A DNA stretch of 35,296 nt. Origin: Eubacteriales Family XIII. Incertae Sedis bacterium (lineage in GTDB: Bacteria; Bacillota; Clostridia; Peptostreptococcales; Anaerovoracaceae). Shown one piece after another: positions 10,354 through 31,246 of the stretch. The translations under genes and the position numbers were made by a program. How positions within the stretch are numbered: position 1 is the stretch's first letter; every line of letters begins with the position of its first letter. Under the pieces are notes generated by a model. The model worked only from the letters and a program-made list of their open reading frames with translations, did no database searches and had not been told where the DNA came from. The DNA is taken from assembly GCA_031277015.1 (NCBI GenBank), contig JAISLZ010000046.1, forward strand, positions 1-35,296. Reading direction: 5' to 3'.

Positions 10354-11340
10354 TCAGTTCCATCCCTCGTTTTCTATTTCCGTATAAAGGGCGCGAAGTT
10401 TCTTGCGGCATTCCTTGCAGTCGGGAAGGTATGACTCGACGAGAGACCAGAATTTCCCGGAGTGGTTCATGTGTCTAAGATGGGCAAGCTCGTGAACCAC
10501 GAGATAATCGACAAGGTCGTCATCTCCGAGCATGATTCTCCATGTATACCTGATACCCCCATCCGCTTTGCAGCTGCCCCAGCGTTTTCGCGCGTTGCCG
10601 ACGCTTATTTCTTTTGGCTTCAGACTCATGAGTGAGGCCCATTCACCCGTGCGTGCGGGCAGTATCTCACGTGCGGCGGCCTTAACCAGAGGTATGAGAT
10701 GTTCTTTGATATCCGGCCACGGGAAGCCCATTACGTTTTCAATCCCGCCATCAACGGATGTGACGTGCTTGCCCCAGTCCGACTGAATAGCGTATGAGCC
10801 GGACTTATCGAACGGCTTGTCTCTCCTTATATATGACGTGATTTCCTCGTCCGTATAGTCGCCCATGGCCACGCGCGTGCATACAGCGAACGTGTCCTCC
10901 ATCCCGGTCGTACGATCTATGGCGGTAACTCCACTCCAGACTTCGTGGCTACGGTTCCGGTACGATGCCAGCATACGGAATGCGTCGTCCTCATCCCGCG
11001 GCTTGCCTATAAGCCCGTCGCACCATACCACCGTGTCCGCCGCTATGAGGATGGGAGGCAGGTACTCTTGCGTGCTTATTGACGAGGGATATTCCCCGAG
11101 GCCGCTTCTCTTGCTGCTATCACAATGTGGCCCAAAGGCGTCCCTGTATCTACCGACTCGCACGTATACATCCAGGGCCTTCTTGCGCGCAAGGTACTTC
11201 ACGATATGTTCCGGCCCGCTTGATTCCACATCCGCTGGCAGGTCTTCGTCCACGCGCGGTGGGCAGACTAAGGGATGTACTCCATGATTCCGGAGTATTT
11301 CGTACCTTCTCGGTGATGTTGACGCCAGCAAAATATCCAT
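10354..11340 (-). CDS. Fusion protein: N-terminal Maf nucleotide pyrophosphatase + C-terminal YgjP/DUF45 metalloprotease-like domain
   Basis: Maf motifs: ILLASTSPRRYEILRNHG, IAADTVVWCDGLIGKPRDEDDAFRML, DKSGSYAIQ...GGIENVMGFPW. YgjP/DUF45 motifs: RKRWGSCKADGGIRYTWRIML and VVHELAHLRHMNHSGKFWSLV (HExxH plus downstream His). Confidence 0.9.
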   Translation of the reverse strand: MDILLASTSPRRYEILRNHGVHPLVCPPRVDEDLPADVESSGPEHIVKYLARKKALDVYVRVGRYRDAFGPHCDSSKRSGLGEYPSSISTQEYLPPILIAADTVVWCDGLIGKPRDEDDAFRMLASYRNRSHEVWSGVTAIDRTTGMEDTFAVCTRVAMGDYTDEEITSYIRRDKPFDKSGSYAIQSDWGKHVTSVDGGIENVMGFPWPDIKEHLIPLVKAAAREILPARTGEWASLMSLKPKEISVGNARKRWGSCKADGGIRYTWRIMLGDDDLVDYLVVHELAHLRHMNHSGKFWSLVESYLPDCKECRKKLRALYTEIENEGWN

Positions 11341-23424: not shown

Positions 23425-24132
23425 ATGATCCCGGACGAAAGGATGAGGATCATGTCACGGATTAAAGAATTACCGCAGTCAGAGCGTCCGCGCGAGAGGC
23501 TGATCGCACTCGGGGCAAAGGCGCTGTCGAACCAGGAGCTTCTCGCGTTGCTCATCGGCAGCGGGCTTCAGGGAGAGTCGGCGATGGCCCTCGCGCTCAG
23601 GGTGCTCGGGTATACCGACGAGGGTATCATGTGGCTACAGACCGCTTCTTCGGAGGAGCTTTCGCGGATAACCGGCATCGGCGAGGCAATCGCTTGCCGG
23701 ATATCCGCGGCGGCGGAGCTCGGCAGGCGTATAGCGGAAGGTATGGCCGCGCAGCATATCCGCTTCGACTCCCCGGATGGCATAGCGTCGTTTCTGATGG
23801 AGGATATGCGCTATGCGAGGAACGAGATATTCAAGATACTCCTGTTTAACGTTCGCGGCGAGATGATGGGACGTGAGCTAGTTTCGGCAGGTGGTATCAA
23901 TTCCTCGATAGTGGACGCGAGAGAAGTATTTCGCCCTGCTGTCAGGCGCGGCGCTGCGAGCATCGTGCTAGTCCACAATCATCCGAGCGGTGATCCTTCC
24001 CCTAGCTCGCAGGACATAGATGTGACAGATTCCCTCACAAAGGCGGGAGAGGTGCTTGGGATCAAAGTGATCGATCATCTGATCATAGGAGATGGATGCT
24101 TCACGAGCTTCAGGCGCGAAGGCCTGATATAA
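23425..24132 (+). CDS. radC: RadC family JAB-domain protein
   Basis: SERPRERLIALGAKALSNQELLALLIGSG, VLVHNHPSGDPSPSSQDIDVT (JAMM motif). The start may be at the internal MSRIKELPQ (23452). Confidence 0.94.
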   Translation: MIPDERMRIMSRIKELPQSERPRERLIALGAKALSNQELLALLIGSGLQGESAMALALRVLGYTDEGIMWLQTASSEELSRITGIGEAIACRISAAAELGRRIAEGMAAQHIRFDSPDGIASFLMEDMRYARNEIFKILLFNVRGEMMGRELVSAGGINSSIVDAREVFRPAVRRGAASIVLVHNHPSGDPSPSSQDIDVTDSLTKAGEVLGIKVIDHLIIGDGCFTSFRREGLI

Positions 24133-24177
24133 AACAGTGGTCCACATGAATGTTGTACGATAGAAACGAGGCATGAT

Positions 24178-25215
24178 ATGTTCGGTATCGGAGGCAGAGA
24201 CGTAGGAATAGATCTTGGCACAGCCAATACCTTGGTGTACATTAAGGGTAAGGGCATCGTGCTGAACCAGCCTTCGGTCATCGCCGTGGATACTTTCGCG
24301 CGTCGCATCCTCGCGGTGGGGCTTGAGGCGAAGAAGATGATAGGCCGGGTCCCTAAGCACATCAAGGTGGTCAGGCCGCTCGAGGATGGTGTCATCTCAA
24401 ACTTTGAGATGACGGCTGAGATGCTTCGCGTATTCATAAGCAAGGCGATAGATAAAGGGTCGAGGCTCTCAAGCATACGCGTGGTCGTCGGCGTACCGTC
24501 CGGCGTTACTGAGGTCGAGAAACGCGCGGTTGAGGAGGTCGTGCGGTCCATGGGGGCGAAAGACGTATACATCCTCGACGAGCCTATGGCGGCAGCTATC
24601 GGGGTAGGTCTTCCGATCGATGGCCCGACAGGATGCATGGTCGCGGATATCGGCGGCGGCACGTCAGATATCGCCATCATAGCCCTCGAAGGCATCGTCG
24701 TGAGCACTTCCATCAGACATGCTGGCGACAAGTTCAACGAAGCGATCGTCGGCTACATGAGGAAGAACTACGAACTCCTCATCGGCGAGGCCATGGCGGA
24801 GGAGCTCAAGATAGAGATAGGATGCGCGTGGATAGATCCTAAGGAAGCCAAGAAGGGCTTCCGGGAATGGGAGGCCAGCGGACGGGATATAGTGTCCGGC
24901 CTTCCCCGTACATATACGGTCACATCAAGGGATATATATGACGCCCTACAGGAATCGATACAGGTCATAGTGGACGGCATCAAGCAGACACTTGAGAACG
25001 CGCCCCCGGCCATAGCCGAGGATATCGTTCATATGGGGATCGTACTCACCGGTGGAGGCGCCTTGATTCGCGGCCTCGACAGGCTCATATCGGAGGAAAC
25101 GGGGCTGAGCGTCATCATTGCCGAGAATGCCCTTGAGGCGGTTGCTGAGGGTGCGGGCACCTGCCTGTCGAACATAGACAAGCTCGAAAGGTACGCAAGC
25201 TACTACAAAAAATGA
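24178..25215 (+). CDS. mreB: Rod shape-determining protein MreB
   Basis: DVGIDLGTANTLVYIKGKGIVLNQPSVIAVD, PRDIGGGTSDIAIIALEGIV region, LTGGGALIRGLDRLISEETGL. Confidence 0.97.
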   Translation: MFGIGGRDVGIDLGTANTLVYIKGKGIVLNQPSVIAVDTFARRILAVGLEAKKMIGRVPKHIKVVRPLEDGVISNFEMTAEMLRVFISKAIDKGSRLSSIRVVVGVPSGVTEVEKRAVEEVVRSMGAKDVYILDEPMAAAIGVGLPIDGPTGCMVADIGGGTSDIAIIALEGIVVSTSIRHAGDKFNEAIVGYMRKNYELLIGEAMAEELKIEIGCAWIDPKEAKKGFREWEASGRDIVSGLPRTYTVTSRDIYDALQESIQVIVDGIKQTLENAPPAIAEDIVHMGIVLTGGGALIRGLDRLISEETGLSVIIAENALEAVAEGAGTCLSNIDKLERYASYYKK

Positions 25216-26042
25216 GATGGTTTGCACGGCATAGATTTCTCACGATCATTGCTGCCGTCTTGGCGGCGCTCGTCGTCTTGTTTGCTGTTTCGGTAAATCT
25301 CCAGGGGGACGACACACTAGCGGGCAAGGCCGCTCGATCGTTTGTCACCTTTGCCCAAAAGCCTTTTATTTCATTAAAAGACAAAATTCTGGGAAATGAT
25401 GCGGAAGCAGGCGTTCGAAGCAGGGACGAGATAGATAAATTGCAGTCCGAGATAGAGGAATTGAAGCTGGAGTTGCAGATGTCCAAGCTCACAGCTGAGG
25501 AATATGCGGAGTTAAAGACGTTGTCTGAGGGTCTGAACATGGTCGATCCATCCGTGGCCATTAAGCCCGTGGCTGCGGATGTCATCTCGTACAGCAACAC
25601 CGACACGTTCAACATTTTCACGGTGGATGTCGGCTCTGAGGAGGGCGTTGTGCGCGATTCGGTAGTCATATGCGGCAACGGGCTCGTGGGTCGTGTGATC
25701 AGCTCCGACAAGGGATGGGCGCGTGTCGTCTCTATCACGGACGAGAACAACCGCATAGGTTTTCAGGTGGCGGAACAAAAGGATGGCCGGAACGTGAGCT
25801 TTCTCGGTATCTGCTCCGGAGACGGTGAAGGCAATATGAAGGGAAACCTGCTTGATGAGGAGGGCTTTGCAAAGGAAGGCGACGAGGTGATCACCTCTGG
25901 CCTTGGCGGTATATACCCCGCGGGACTCACGATAGGTAAGGTGACGAAAGCAGGATATACGAAAAAGAGCCAATTGTTGGAAGTGACGATAGAACCCGCC
26001 GCGTACTTTAAAGGTTTGAAAAAAGTGGTGATTCTCATATGA
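25212..26042 (+). CDS. mreC: Rod shape-determining protein MreC
   Basis: N-terminal TM, coiled coil, then TVDVGSEEGVVRDSVVICGNGLVGRVISSDKGWARVVSITD...VITSGLGGIYPAGLTIGKV. Confidence 0.93.
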   Translation: MRWFARHRFLTIIAAVLAALVVLFAVSVNLQGDDTLAGKAARSFVTFAQKPFISLKDKILGNDAEAGVRSRDEIDKLQSEIEELKLELQMSKLTAEEYAELKTLSEGLNMVDPSVAIKPVAADVISYSNTDTFNIFTVDVGSEEGVVRDSVVICGNGLVGRVISSDKGWARVVSITDENNRIGFQVAEQKDGRNVSFLGICSGDGEGNMKGNLLDEEGFAKEGDEVITSGLGGIYPAGLTIGKVTKAGYTKKSQLLEVTIEPAAYFKGLKKVVILI

Positions 26043-26560
26043 GCGCCATGCGATGGTACATAGCCGCCCCGGTGTTTTTCGTGGCTTGCCTCTTGCAGAC
26101 AACTCTGGTCAGCGAGTTTGAGCTTTGGGGCCATTCACCCAATCTGTTGCTTTGCATGGTCTGCGTGTTCTCGTTCCTGTACACGGAGCCATATGGCCTC
26201 GTGATGGGTGTGGTATTCGGCGCGTTGCTCGATATCGCGACCTCATGGTACTTCGGGCCACAGGCCATATCGTTCGTCTTGGCCTTTGCGATAGCGAGGC
26301 CGTTCGGCAAGGTATTCAATCACGAATGGTTCCTACCCCAGATCATGATAGCGGCTATAGCTACGCCCGTCAATGTGTTCCTCATGTGGGTGATGGGTCG
26401 GATCGCCGGTAGCCCTGTGCACGTACGTTTCGCGTTTGAATCTTTGCCCGCCCTGCTTATCATGCATTGCGCTCTCGCTGTAGCGCTACATTTCATATTT
26501 GTCCGTTCCGTCATAAGGCACGGTATAGACAGAAAATATTATGGGGAGATAATGATGTGA
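26039..26560 (+). CDS. mreD: Rod shape-determining protein MreD
   Basis: Short polytopic membrane protein directly after mreC with ATGA overlap; FFVACLLQTTLVSEFELWGHSPNLLLCMVCVFSFLYTEPYGLVMGVVFGALLDIATSWYFG. Confidence 0.88.
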   Translation: MSAMRWYIAAPVFFVACLLQTTLVSEFELWGHSPNLLLCMVCVFSFLYTEPYGLVMGVVFGALLDIATSWYFGPQAISFVLAFAIARPFGKVFNHEWFLPQIMIAAIATPVNVFLMWVMGRIAGSPVHVRFAFESLPALLIMHCALAVALHFIFVRSVIRHGIDRKYYGEIMM

Positions 26561-29367
26561 GTTCGTGGTATGCCAGCAGGAATAATATACTGATCGTAGT
26601 CTTTGCTGCCCTCATCACGGTGATGGCAGTGAGGCTTTACGTCATCACCGGACCAGAAGGGAAGAAATGGGTCGCTGAGGCGGATTCGAACGCGGTCAGG
26701 ACCATAAGGACTGACGCCCCCAGGGGTGAGATATACGACCGCAACGGTATACTCATCGCGGGTAACCACTCGAGCTATGCCGTGGACTTTTCGAGGAACG
26801 AGATGTCGAACGAGGACGTGAACAATAGCGCTAAGCAGCTCGTGGACATACTGAACAAGCATGAAGAAAAAATCATAGACGAGTTCCCGATACGGGAAGC
26901 GGATGACGGTAGTCTGTCGTACATATATGACAGCAAGATCAAGGAGTGGCTGGATAGCAATGACATGCCCGCAGACTACACCGCTGAGCAAGCCTTTGGC
27001 GAACTCAGAAGCAGGAACAACATCCCGGAGGGGCTCAGCGCGGCCGACGCTCAGCAGAGGCTCATAGATATCGGCATCATTCCGCCAATATCCGTAAGCG
27101 ATTCAAAATACACATTTACACATGATATCGAAAAGAAAAATTTCCTTGAACTTCATAAAGTGAAAGATTCACCGGACGCCAGGAAAGCCTATGACTCCAT
27201 CAGGGAGCTATATAAGATCGATAAGCAGTTCCCGGGATTGACCGAAAAGGAGGCAAGGCAGCTCATCGTCGTAAGGAGCGCATTGACCTCTCTCGGCTAT
27301 TTGCAGTGGATGCCCGCCAAGATAGCGACGGACCTTCAAGAGGAGACCGTGGTTGAGCTTGAAGAAAAGAAACATAACATAGAGGGGATGGAGATCGTGA
27401 CAGAGTCCGTAAGGTATTATCCGGAAGGAAACACGGCAAGTCACGTAGTGGGATATCTTGGGAAAATATCCCAAGACAATCTGAAGAAATACGAAAAAAA
27501 AGGATATAAAGCATCCGACCTCGTCGGTCTGTCCGGCATAGAAGCCTCACAGGAGAGCATACTTAGGGGCGTGGACGGCATGAGGCGTTTGCAGGTCAAC
27601 AACGTGGGCGGTGCCATTCGCGAGCTCGACGAGGCTACGGAGGCGAGGAAGGGTAGCGATATAGCGCTTACTATAGACATGAGATTGCAGAAGATAGCCG
27701 ACGACGCCATCACGAAAGCGCTCAAAGGTATCAGAGCTGGCGGGATATTCACGAGCGAGTTTGGCAACTACACGTTCGAAGATAAATCCCCTAATGCCGA
27801 GGTGGGCGCGGCCGTGGCGATAGATGTCAAGACAGGTGAGCCGTTGGCGATATCTAGTATTCCGGACTTTGATCCGAATATCTTCTCCGAGGGCATATCG
27901 CAGAAGGACTGGGACGCCCTCCAACCGGCTAATCCGAGGGATCCGCTTGCGCCGCGGCCGCTTTACAATGTAGCCGCGCTCACGGCCGTCCAACCGGGCA
28001 GTACGTTCAAGCCTATGACAGGCATCGTCGCTCAGGAGTCGGGCCTCGATGCGTACAGAGAACTCTTCGACGCGCAGAAGGTGGTGATAGGCGATCACTC
28101 ATACAAATGTATGGGTAGCCACGGTTATGTCAACCTGTTCTCCGCGATGGAAGTATCGTGCAACTTCTATTTTTACGACGCGGCTACAGGCAGAGACTGG
28201 GCGAACAGCGGCAGAGATCTTGGCTACGCGAAGAATATCAGTATAGACAAGATATCCGACTACGCAAAGAAGTTCGGCCTCGGAGTGGAGACCGGCGCGG
28301 AGATAGGGGAGACGGTGGCTCCCGCTCCCAGCGCGGAGTCGAAGCTGGAGGGCACGAAGGCCATGCTCAGACAGCGTTTGACAGGTCAGGCCGAGGATCT
28401 ATTCGGCTCCAAAACAGCGAAGAATTACAACAAGCTTATCGAGGCAATAGATCAGATAGTGGGATGGACCGAGGAGAACCCCTCCGTGGCGGAGATAAGA
28501 GACAGGCTCATCGCTCTGGGCGTCAAAAAGGGCAAGGCTACGACGGCCGCCGAGGAGTGCAAATACACCTACTTCAACTACGCGCAGTGGACGACGGGTG
28601 ATGAATTTAACATCGCGATAGGGCAAGGGGAAAACGCTTTCACCACGATGCAGGTAGCCCGATACCTTGCCACCATCGGCGGCGGCGAGCTAAAGTCCAT
28701 GAGCCTCATCAAGGCAGTCGAGGGCGAAGGTGAGGCCATAAGGCCAGCGTCCGCCGATACGGGCGTCAAAAAACAATATGTGAAGAACGTCATCGACGGC
28801 ATGCGCCGTGTGGTATCGGATGGTTCGCTCGCGGACGGGATGTCCGGACTGAACGTCACCGTCGCGGGAAAGACCGGTACGGCGCAGCGCTCGGGATATA
28901 TCAATCCGCCAGACGAAGTCAAATATGTGAAGGAGCATCTATCGGGCATCAACCCGAATCTTTCGTGGAATGAGGTCAACAAGGAGATGAAAAGACTCTT
29001 GTCCGAATACCCGCGCCTGTATCAGAGCAGGAATACCGCGGTGCGCAAGGCCGTCATGAACCTGTCGGGGAACGGATTCAGCGAGGCGAGCATCGACGCG
29101 TTCAAGGATAAATATGCCGACTTCGCTTGGGTAATGGCAATGGCGCCTGCGGATGATCCGGAGATAGCCGTGGTCTGCCTCATCGTACAGGGCGGTCCTT
29201 CAGGCAATGCTTCGCCCGTAGTGCGGGAGATCATAGGGCAGTACTTCAAATTGAAGGATGAGGACAAGAAAAATAGTCTCAGTATCGACTTCGGTACCTT
29301 TTTTACCGAAGATAAGACTGACCGGATCATAAGCGGCCCTGCCGTGACGGTGGCTCAGCATGGGTAA
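26557..29367 (+). CDS. mrdA: Penicillin-binding protein 2 (class B transpeptidase)
   Basis: GTG start overlapping the mreD stop (GTGA); APRGEIYDRNGILIAGN, STFK (GSTFKPMTG), SCN, KTG (AGKTGTAQ). Confidence 0.93.
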   Translation: MSSWYASRNNILIVVFAALITVMAVRLYVITGPEGKKWVAEADSNAVRTIRTDAPRGEIYDRNGILIAGNHSSYAVDFSRNEMSNEDVNNSAKQLVDILNKHEEKIIDEFPIREADDGSLSYIYDSKIKEWLDSNDMPADYTAEQAFGELRSRNNIPEGLSAADAQQRLIDIGIIPPISVSDSKYTFTHDIEKKNFLELHKVKDSPDARKAYDSIRELYKIDKQFPGLTEKEARQLIVVRSALTSLGYLQWMPAKIATDLQEETVVELEEKKHNIEGMEIVTESVRYYPEGNTASHVVGYLGKISQDNLKKYEKKGYKASDLVGLSGIEASQESILRGVDGMRRLQVNNVGGAIRELDEATEARKGSDIALTIDMRLQKIADDAITKALKGIRAGGIFTSEFGNYTFEDKSPNAEVGAAVAIDVKTGEPLAISSIPDFDPNIFSEGISQKDWDALQPANPRDPLAPRPLYNVAALTAVQPGSTFKPMTGIVAQESGLDAYRELFDAQKVVIGDHSYKCMGSHGYVNLFSAMEVSCNFYFYDAATGRDWANSGRDLGYAKNISIDKISDYAKKFGLGVETGAEIGETVAPAPSAESKLEGTKAMLRQRLTGQAEDLFGSKTAKNYNKLIEAIDQIVGWTEENPSVAEIRDRLIALGVKKGKATTAAEECKYTYFNYAQWTTGDEFNIAIGQGENAFTTMQVARYLATIGGGELKSMSLIKAVEGEGEAIRPASADTGVKKQYVKNVIDGMRRVVSDGSLADGMSGLNVTVAGKTGTAQRSGYINPPDEVKYVKEHLSGINPNLSWNEVNKEMKRLLSEYPRLYQSRNTAVRKAVMNLSGNGFSEASIDAFKDKYADFAWVMAMAPADDPEIAVVCLIVQGGPSGNASPVVREIIGQYFKLKDEDKKNSLSIDFGTFFTEDKTDRIISGPAVTVAQHG

Positions 29368-30082
29368 GCTCTATCTCGCCGCCTCGGGCAAGGGTGGCGT
29401 CGGCAAGTCCATCTTCTCGTCCAATCTCAGCTCCACGTACGCTGACAGAGGCGTCAAGGTGGCTCTAGTTGATATGAATGTAGGGCTGCGCAACCTCGAC
29501 CTATACATGGGACTGGAAAACAAGGTCATCTTCGATGTGGCGGACGTACTCGCCGGTGTCGTGCCGCCGCGCAAAGCTTTAGTGCGGGACAGGAGGTTCC
29601 CATTCCTGTATCTGCTCGCCACTACGCAGAAAAAGGAAAAGTTCAGCGCCGGTCACGATGACATGAAGCGCCTGTACGAATATTTCAGGAAGAATTTCGA
29701 TGTGACGGTTATAGATGGCCCTGCGGGCGTTAATCGCGAGCTCAGCCTCGCCGCCACGGACGTCGACGCGGCCGTCATGATAACGACGCCCGAATACGTA
29801 TCCCTGCGCGACGCGGACCTCGTGGAACAGACTCTGAGGAAGCAGGGTGTGAAGAACAGGGTCTACGTCGTCAACAAGGTGAACAAGGACTTCCTCGGGA
29901 ACAGCAAACTTCCATCGGTGGAAGTCATCACAAGTACGATGAAGATACCGCTTCTTGGCGTCATACAGTATGACGACGACATCCATATCGCGGCCAACAG
30001 CGGCGTACCCGCTGTCGTTGGAAATGATTCATATATTACGAGAAATTTCAATAAAATTGCTGATAGGCTACTCGCCTATTGA
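29360..30082 (+). CDS. MinD/ParA-family ATPase (septum site-determining MinD-like)
   Basis: Deviant Walker A SGKGGVGKSIFSSNLS, VDMNVGLRNLDLYMGLENKVIFDVADVL, VIDGPAGVNRELSLAA; overlaps the mrdA end by 8 bp. Confidence 0.88.
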   Translation: MGKLYLAASGKGGVGKSIFSSNLSSTYADRGVKVALVDMNVGLRNLDLYMGLENKVIFDVADVLAGVVPPRKALVRDRRFPFLYLLATTQKKEKFSAGHDDMKRLYEYFRKNFDVTVIDGPAGVNRELSLAATDVDAAVMITTPEYVSLRDADLVEQTLRKQGVKNRVYVVNKVNKDFLGNSKLPSVEVITSTMKIPLLGVIQYDDDIHIAANSGVPAVVGNDSYITRNFNKIADRLLAY

Positions 30083-30097
30083 TAGGCGCGCGCTCCA

Positions 30098-31246
30098 TCA
30101 CCTATGTATAGGGATGCCCGGCGCTGTCTCGGAGTCTACGTGCTTATAAGTGCGCTCTCGGCTTCTCATGCCGCAGCCAGCGATGAGGCCTATCGCTATC
30201 ATATTCGCCATGACTGACGTACCTCCGGCCGATACGAACGGCAGGGTGATCCCCGTGATAGGCATGATGCCGATCGTCATCCCTATGTTTTCGAATATCT
30301 GAAATCCGAACATGCACATGAATCCTACACATAGCAAGCCGCTGAAATATTCCTTGGCGTCGGCCACCGCCCTCCATATGCGCGTGAGCAGAACGAAGAA
30401 TAGCCCTATGACGAGGAATCCACCCAGGAAACCGAGCTCCTCGCATATCACCGAGAAGATGAAGTCCGACTCCGCCACCGGAAGAAACTCCTTTATCGTG
30501 CCGTTGCCTAGTCCCTTGCCCCTTATACCCCCGCTACCTATGGCGAGCATGGACTGGTGTAGTTGAAATGTTTCCTTGATCGTGGTGTCCTCTGGGTGCA
30601 GGAAGGCCACGAAACGTTGCTTCTGATGGTCCTCCAGAAATCTATAGCCGATGGGAAAGAGCAGGACGACCACTCCCACGATACGAAGGAACAGGCTGCC
30701 TCTGATGCCCGCAGCGAAGACCATGCCGATGAAGATGACCGCAATAACTATACCCGCGCCCATGTCGATGAAAGCGACGAGCCCTATAACGGGCGCCGCG
30801 AACAGCAGGGCCCGGATGAATCCAATAAGCGAACCCAATTCTTCACGGTGCTTCTTCAGGTAGGCGGCTAGCGCGATCGTGAACGTTATTTTTACAAGCT
30901 CGGAAGGTTGCATCGTAGTAAAACCGAGATCTATCCACGCCCTGGAACCATACCTCTCAAGGCCCAGGAACGGAACGAACACCGATAGCTGTATGATCAA
31001 AGAGAGTAACCATATGATGCGGTAAAATTTAGAAAAATGTTCGATGTCGAAACGCGCGGCCAGTGCCAGCAGTGCGTACCCCATACCGAACGAGAGTGCC
31101 TGTACATAAATATCGCGCGGGTAGTCCACTTCATCACTCGTTACGCTACCGATTACGAGGATGCCTATGAGCCCGAGAATGGCGGGAAGGATGATCAATA
31201 GCAAGTCTACGCGCTTTAGCCTGTCAAAAAGATTAGTTTCCATCAA
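30098..31246 (-). CDS. rodA: RodA/FtsW/SpoVE family (SEDS) glycosyltransferase
   Basis: GSRAWIDLGFTTMQPSELVKITFTIALAAYL, HQSMLAIGSGGIRGKGLGNGTIKEFLPVAESDFIFSVICEELGFLGG, GITLPFVSAGGTSVMANMIAIGL. Confidence 0.94.
   Translation of the reverse strand: MMETNLFDRLKRVDLLLIILPAILGLIGILVIGSVTSDEVDYPRDIYVQALSFGMGYALLALAARFDIEHFSKFYRIIWLLSLIIQLSVFVPFLGLERYGSRAWIDLGFTTMQPSELVKITFTIALAAYLKKHREELGSLIGFIRALLFAAPVIGLVAFIDMGAGIVIAVIFIGMVFAAGIRGSLFLRIVGVVVLLFPIGYRFLEDHQKQRFVAFLHPEDTTIKETFQLHQSMLAIGSGGIRGKGLGNGTIKEFLPVAESDFIFSVICEELGFLGGFLVIGLFFVLLTRIWRAVADAKEYFSGLLCVGFMCMFGFQIFENIGMTIGIMPITGITLPFVSAGGTSVMANMIAIGLIAGCGMRSRERTYKHVDSETAPGIPIHR

Follow-up and report, generated by a model that had tools for sequence, protein, structure and literature searches.

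Does the window, a 35,296-nucleotide stretch of an Anaerovoracaceae draft genome (contig JAISLZ010000046.1), encode a true single protein in which a Maf pyrophosphatase is joined to a YgjP-like (DUF45) metallopeptidase-like domain, and if so, what could such a protein do?

One open reading frame encodes Maf and the catalytic half of a YgjP-like protein

A preliminary description of the window, made from its letters only, had proposed an uninterrupted 328-aa open reading frame carrying both domains, and this was borne out by Pfam, by the frame running from ATG to stop and by the same fusion in two relatives. The maf-ygjP fusion gene lies at 10354-11340 on the minus strand, begins with ATG and encodes 328 aa plus a stop, with no internal stop codon. 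The Maf domain (PF02545; aa 3-215, 10696-11334, minus strand) was matched with an E-value of 2.2e-46 and 158 bits against a curated cut-off of 27, and the YgjP-like catalytic core (PF01863; aa 211-316, 10393-10710, minus strand) with 4.1e-36 and 125 bits against a cut-off of 26; both families exceeded their cut-offs in the two fused relatives as well. The YgjP/DUF45 domain is indeed present, as had been claimed, but only as its C-terminal catalytic half: the match covers positions 100-205 of the 207 of the PF01863 profile, the N-terminal half (profile positions 1-100) is absent from the window protein, and in both fused relatives the match likewise begins at position 100-101. In the protein as modelled, Maf physically replaces the N-terminal half of YgjP.

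The fusion is rare and restricted to one genus

The window genome (G000) is a 1.98-Mb draft of 117 contigs, 87% complete, and its single Maf match and single YgjP match both fall within the fusion gene. The fusion occurs in three of the five genomes of the genus, namely G000, G001 (JAISZM010000183.1) and G002 (JAISAI010000033.1); the relatives are listed as Clostridiales Family XIII bacterium, which the taxonomy assigns to Anaerovoracaceae. The fused proteins are 64-66% identical end to end and share the same gene neighbourhood. In the other two congeners, G003 and G004, Maf (about 205 aa) and a full-length YgjP are encoded by separate genes on other contigs. The preliminary description had held that the fusion would be refuted if close relatives always encoded two separate genes; this does not apply, since two congeners share the fusion and two do not. 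Because the full-length fusion recurs in two further genomes at this identity and in this neighbourhood, the join is not to be ascribed to assembly: a fragmented window genome and two fused relatives that are metagenome-assembled could raise the suspicion of an assembly or binning artefact, but the same junction in three genomes, each with MATE to one side and, where the contig is long enough (two genomes), with ROK/xylB to the other, makes such an artefact hardly conceivable.

A profile of the three fused proteins was run against 352 genomes from the family, 392 from the class and 399 from the phylum and detected no further full-length fusion; strict cut-offs were applied at the class and phylum levels, where a very distant independent fusion could have escaped detection. 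No report of a Maf+YgjP/DUF45 architecture was found in the paper library that we searched. The fusion is a rare, genuine and lineage-restricted variation on two known families, and it is old and preserved. It most likely stands in for the separate ygjP gene, as no second copy was found in its own genome, the genomes being 73-87% complete, such that a separate ygjP could be absent from the assemblies.

A single origin at the maf locus is most likely

A ROK kinase gene and xylB adjoin maf in G000 and G002, which are fused, and also in G003, which is not. Downstream of maf, MATE follows in the fused genomes, either immediately or beyond intervening genes, an MFS gene among them, and G003 and G004 have another gene, with a 3D-like domain by eye. 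None of the genes flanking the fusion lies beside ygjP in the relatives examined. In trees, the fused proteins cluster within the genus by their Maf halves (support 86/88), and their three YgjP halves form one clade with support of 100/96 or better. The shared maf locus, together with the grouping of the Maf halves and that of the YgjP halves, points to one fusion event at the maf locus, most likely in an ancestor shared by three species of a single Anaerovoracaceae genus. Common descent of the fused YgjP halves with the separate YgjP of the congeners was not rejected (AU p 0.25), the nearest relatives of these halves being poorly placed. We also considered a prior adjacency of maf and ygjP as the source of the fusion and rejected it, because in the five sampled genomes having both genes on one contig (G012, G015, G037, G038 and G049) the distance between them ranges from about 19 kb to over 1 Mb.

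The Maf half retains the YhdE-type active site

Maf proteins act as pyrophosphatases on dTTP, UTP, CTP and modified pyrimidine NTPs, and their signature (YhdE S10, R13, E33, K52, D70 and K82) and subfamily residues have been defined (PMC3899018). When the window protein was aligned with E. coli YhdE, S9, R11, R12, E32 and K54 corresponded to S10, R12, R13, E33 and K52, and D102, T103, K113 and Q186 to D70, T71, K82 and Q153. All six signature residues S-R-E-K-D-K (S9, R12, E32, K54, D102 and K113) are therefore present, as are the R-T-Q residues of the YhdE subfamily (R11, T103 and Q186); the G001 protein has Arg at the position of Q186. The Maf motifs noted earlier thus belong to a complete YhdE-type domain with every published catalytic residue, which would cleave dTTP, UTP and modified pyrimidine NTPs, releasing NMP and pyrophosphate. 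Compared with the YhdE subfamily (E. coli YhdE, B. subtilis BSU28050), the fusion has the same signature residues and fold and an active site that aligns position by position, but it carries an additional variable loop, about 30 aa long, ahead of the strand of the catalytic Asp, and its C-terminal helix continues into the second domain. The loop, noticed in the preliminary description as an insertion, does exist at about aa 61-94 (11059-11160, minus strand), but it varies in length and sequence among the fused proteins (67-85% of aligned positions differ) and was modelled with low confidence by AlphaFold; we therefore rejected the idea that it is a new functional element.

The second half is predicted to be a minigluzincin-type core

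Few YgjP-like/DUF45 proteins have been studied experimentally, and the family is widespread and poorly understood. Protease activity in DUF45 has been linked, weakly, to a B. cereus protein that had been purified and identified by mass spectrometry (PMC4352737). The fusion has in common with the family (PF01863, COG1451) the catalytic core with RWGSC and HELAH...NHS...FW, whereas it lacks the family's N-terminal half and has Maf in its place. In the window protein, RWGSC is at aa 253-257, HELAH at 283-287 and the third histidine at H293; alignment showed that RWGSC, H283, E284, H287 and H293 are conserved in all three fused proteins, and that the His and Glu residues of HExxH, like the third His, do not vary across the 34 YgjP domains compared. 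The HExxHx5H spacing of 283/287/293 equals that of H115, H119 and H125, the zinc ligands of Wss1 (PMC5557861). Zinc would accordingly be held by H283, H287 and H293, with E284 as the general base. By sequence, a profile of YgjP cores found proabylysin with an E-value of 1.8e-7, and projannalysin and Wss1 as well.

An AlphaFold model built on a 26-sequence alignment (pLDDT 89.3, pTM 0.86) showed a Maf fold and a complete minigluzincin fold; the two have one continuous helix in common, at aa 208-237 (10630-10719, minus strand), in which the last Maf helix would pass without a break into the helix that opens the peptidase core. Foldseek comparison of this predicted model placed the N-terminal part on Maf structures with TMt 0.83-0.90 (0.89 for B. 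subtilis Maf, 1ex2), and the C-terminal part on proabylysin (4jiu) with TMt 0.78 and an rmsd of 1.7 A over 98 columns, that is, a proabylysin-like fold of about 100 residues, and on Wss1 (5xbn) with TMt 0.53. As the modelled minigluzincin domain is complete, the retained piece appears to be the catalytic core, and the N-terminal half proper to the family is the part that was lost. The predicted fold is that of the minigluzincins (proabylysin and the WLM/SprT proteases of the Wss1/SPRTN type), and the HExxHx5H zinc site is that of Wss1, but structural alignments gave identities of 12-18%, and no DNA-, SUMO- or Cdc48-binding parts are known in the fusion. That such a core is kept alone in a natural fusion suggests that it is a self-contained unit.

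Both parts are under purifying selection

Nei-Gojobori estimates for the genes of the fused proteins gave dN of 0.30-0.33 and dS of 1.1-2.4 for the Maf half, and dN of 0.21-0.24 and dS of 0.66-2.1 for the YgjP half, dS being partly saturated. In each core domain, the third codon position was clearly more variable than the other two. The lower dN and the third-position excess in both halves indicate that both are maintained, and the nucleotide comparisons point to purifying selection on each part.

What the fused protein may do

Taken together, we consider that the gene probably encodes a bifunctional housekeeping protein whose two active sites are separate and intact, a predicted NTP pyrophosphatase and a predicted zinc peptidase, the latter being the minimal metallopeptidase core, of minigluzincin fold, of a YgjP-like/DUF45 protein. 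This agrees with the part of the preliminary description that had Maf coupled to a peptidase-like domain, which fits the minigluzincin fold match and the Wss1-like spacing of the zinc ligands. Our guess is that the two halves are probably independent modules joined without strong or specific coupling. Loss of the N-terminal half could have left the peptidase core without activity or with faulty regulation.

It is doubtful, though, that the YgjP piece is only a non-catalytic remnant, or a structural or oligomerisation module, on a working Maf. Half of the PF01863 profile is missing, and the occurrence in the bacterial family of other, unrelated Maf fusions with radical SAM, NUDIX and PanC partners suggests that Maf may tolerate accidental tails; however, the zinc ligands, the general base and RWGSC are all retained in three diverged proteins, dN is well under dS, and the piece retained corresponds to an entire minigluzincin fold.

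The other suggestion made at the outset, that the fusion joins two activities for cleaning the nucleotide pool, with the YgjP half as a second UTP (or related NTP) pyrophosphatase, seems to us unlikely. The annotation on which it drew was found only as a table label in Salmonella, where ygjP is listed as 'UTP pyrophosphatase, nucleotide metabolism' (PMC12783615), and a Maf-NUDIX fusion in another Anaerovoracaceae member would suit it, but the RefSeq name of the K-12 protein is only 'putative metal-dependent hydrolase', and the profile search and the Foldseek match of the model both give the fold of minigluzincin peptidases. Moreover, E. coli YgjP (L117, 2461-2961, plus strand) is a short, divergent member of PF01863 that matches just positions 146-200 and lacks RWGSC; the YgjP half of the window protein shares with it the metallopeptidase motif region and no whole-length similarity. 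Because of this divergence, the E. coli protein reveals little about the domain in the fusion, and the 'UTP pyrophosphatase' label is unsafe to transfer to DUF45 proteins and should not be copied across the YgjP family.

A more elaborate version of the peptidase reading, a nucleotide-gated zinc protease in which the shared helix is rigid and relays nucleotide binding by Maf to the peptidase half, strikes us as very improbable, and we give just as little credence to Maf being a sensor that replaces the lost N-terminal domain of YgjP. If it were true, a division or DNA-repair protein, for example, would be cut when pyrimidine NTP pools become abnormal. A role in anti-phage defence was rejected, no PADLOC family having been matched.

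Returning to the bifunctional housekeeping protein, we regard the fusion as weak evidence for a general functional partnership of Maf and YgjP, because it is confined to one small clade, because maf and ygjP are non-adjacent in the sampled relatives having both on one contig, and because Maf is also fused to other partners. It nevertheless offers a naturally anchored construct for testing the role of the YgjP-like domain.

Other Maf fusions and genes of the window

Human ASMTL likewise has an N-terminal YhdE-like Maf covalently joined to a C-terminal enzyme-like domain (PMC3899018), but its partner is an unrelated methyltransferase whereas that of the present fusion is a predicted metallopeptidase. 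Three further open frames with other Maf partners were observed. In another Anaerovoracaceae genome, Maf (aa 13-212) and NUDIX (aa 245-365), two nucleotide-cleaning domains, are fused in one open frame (L122, 1010-2154, minus strand; G262:C16). In a 505-aa frame, Maf (aa 13-207) precedes radical SAM and Radical_SAM_C domains (L121, 2165-3679, plus strand; G200:C12), and a 528-aa frame has PanC (pantoate-beta-alanine ligase) followed by Maf (L073, 5939-7522, minus strand; G018:C2).

In other bacteria, maf is often found in the radC-mre neighbourhood, and E. coli yhdE adjoins mreD. The window has the order radC-mreB-mreC-mreD-PBP2-MinD-like-RodA (names by eye) at 23425-31246, without maf, which lies about 12 kb away. 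At 263-630 on the plus strand, the window also carries a cluster of three tRNA genes (Trp, Pro and Met).
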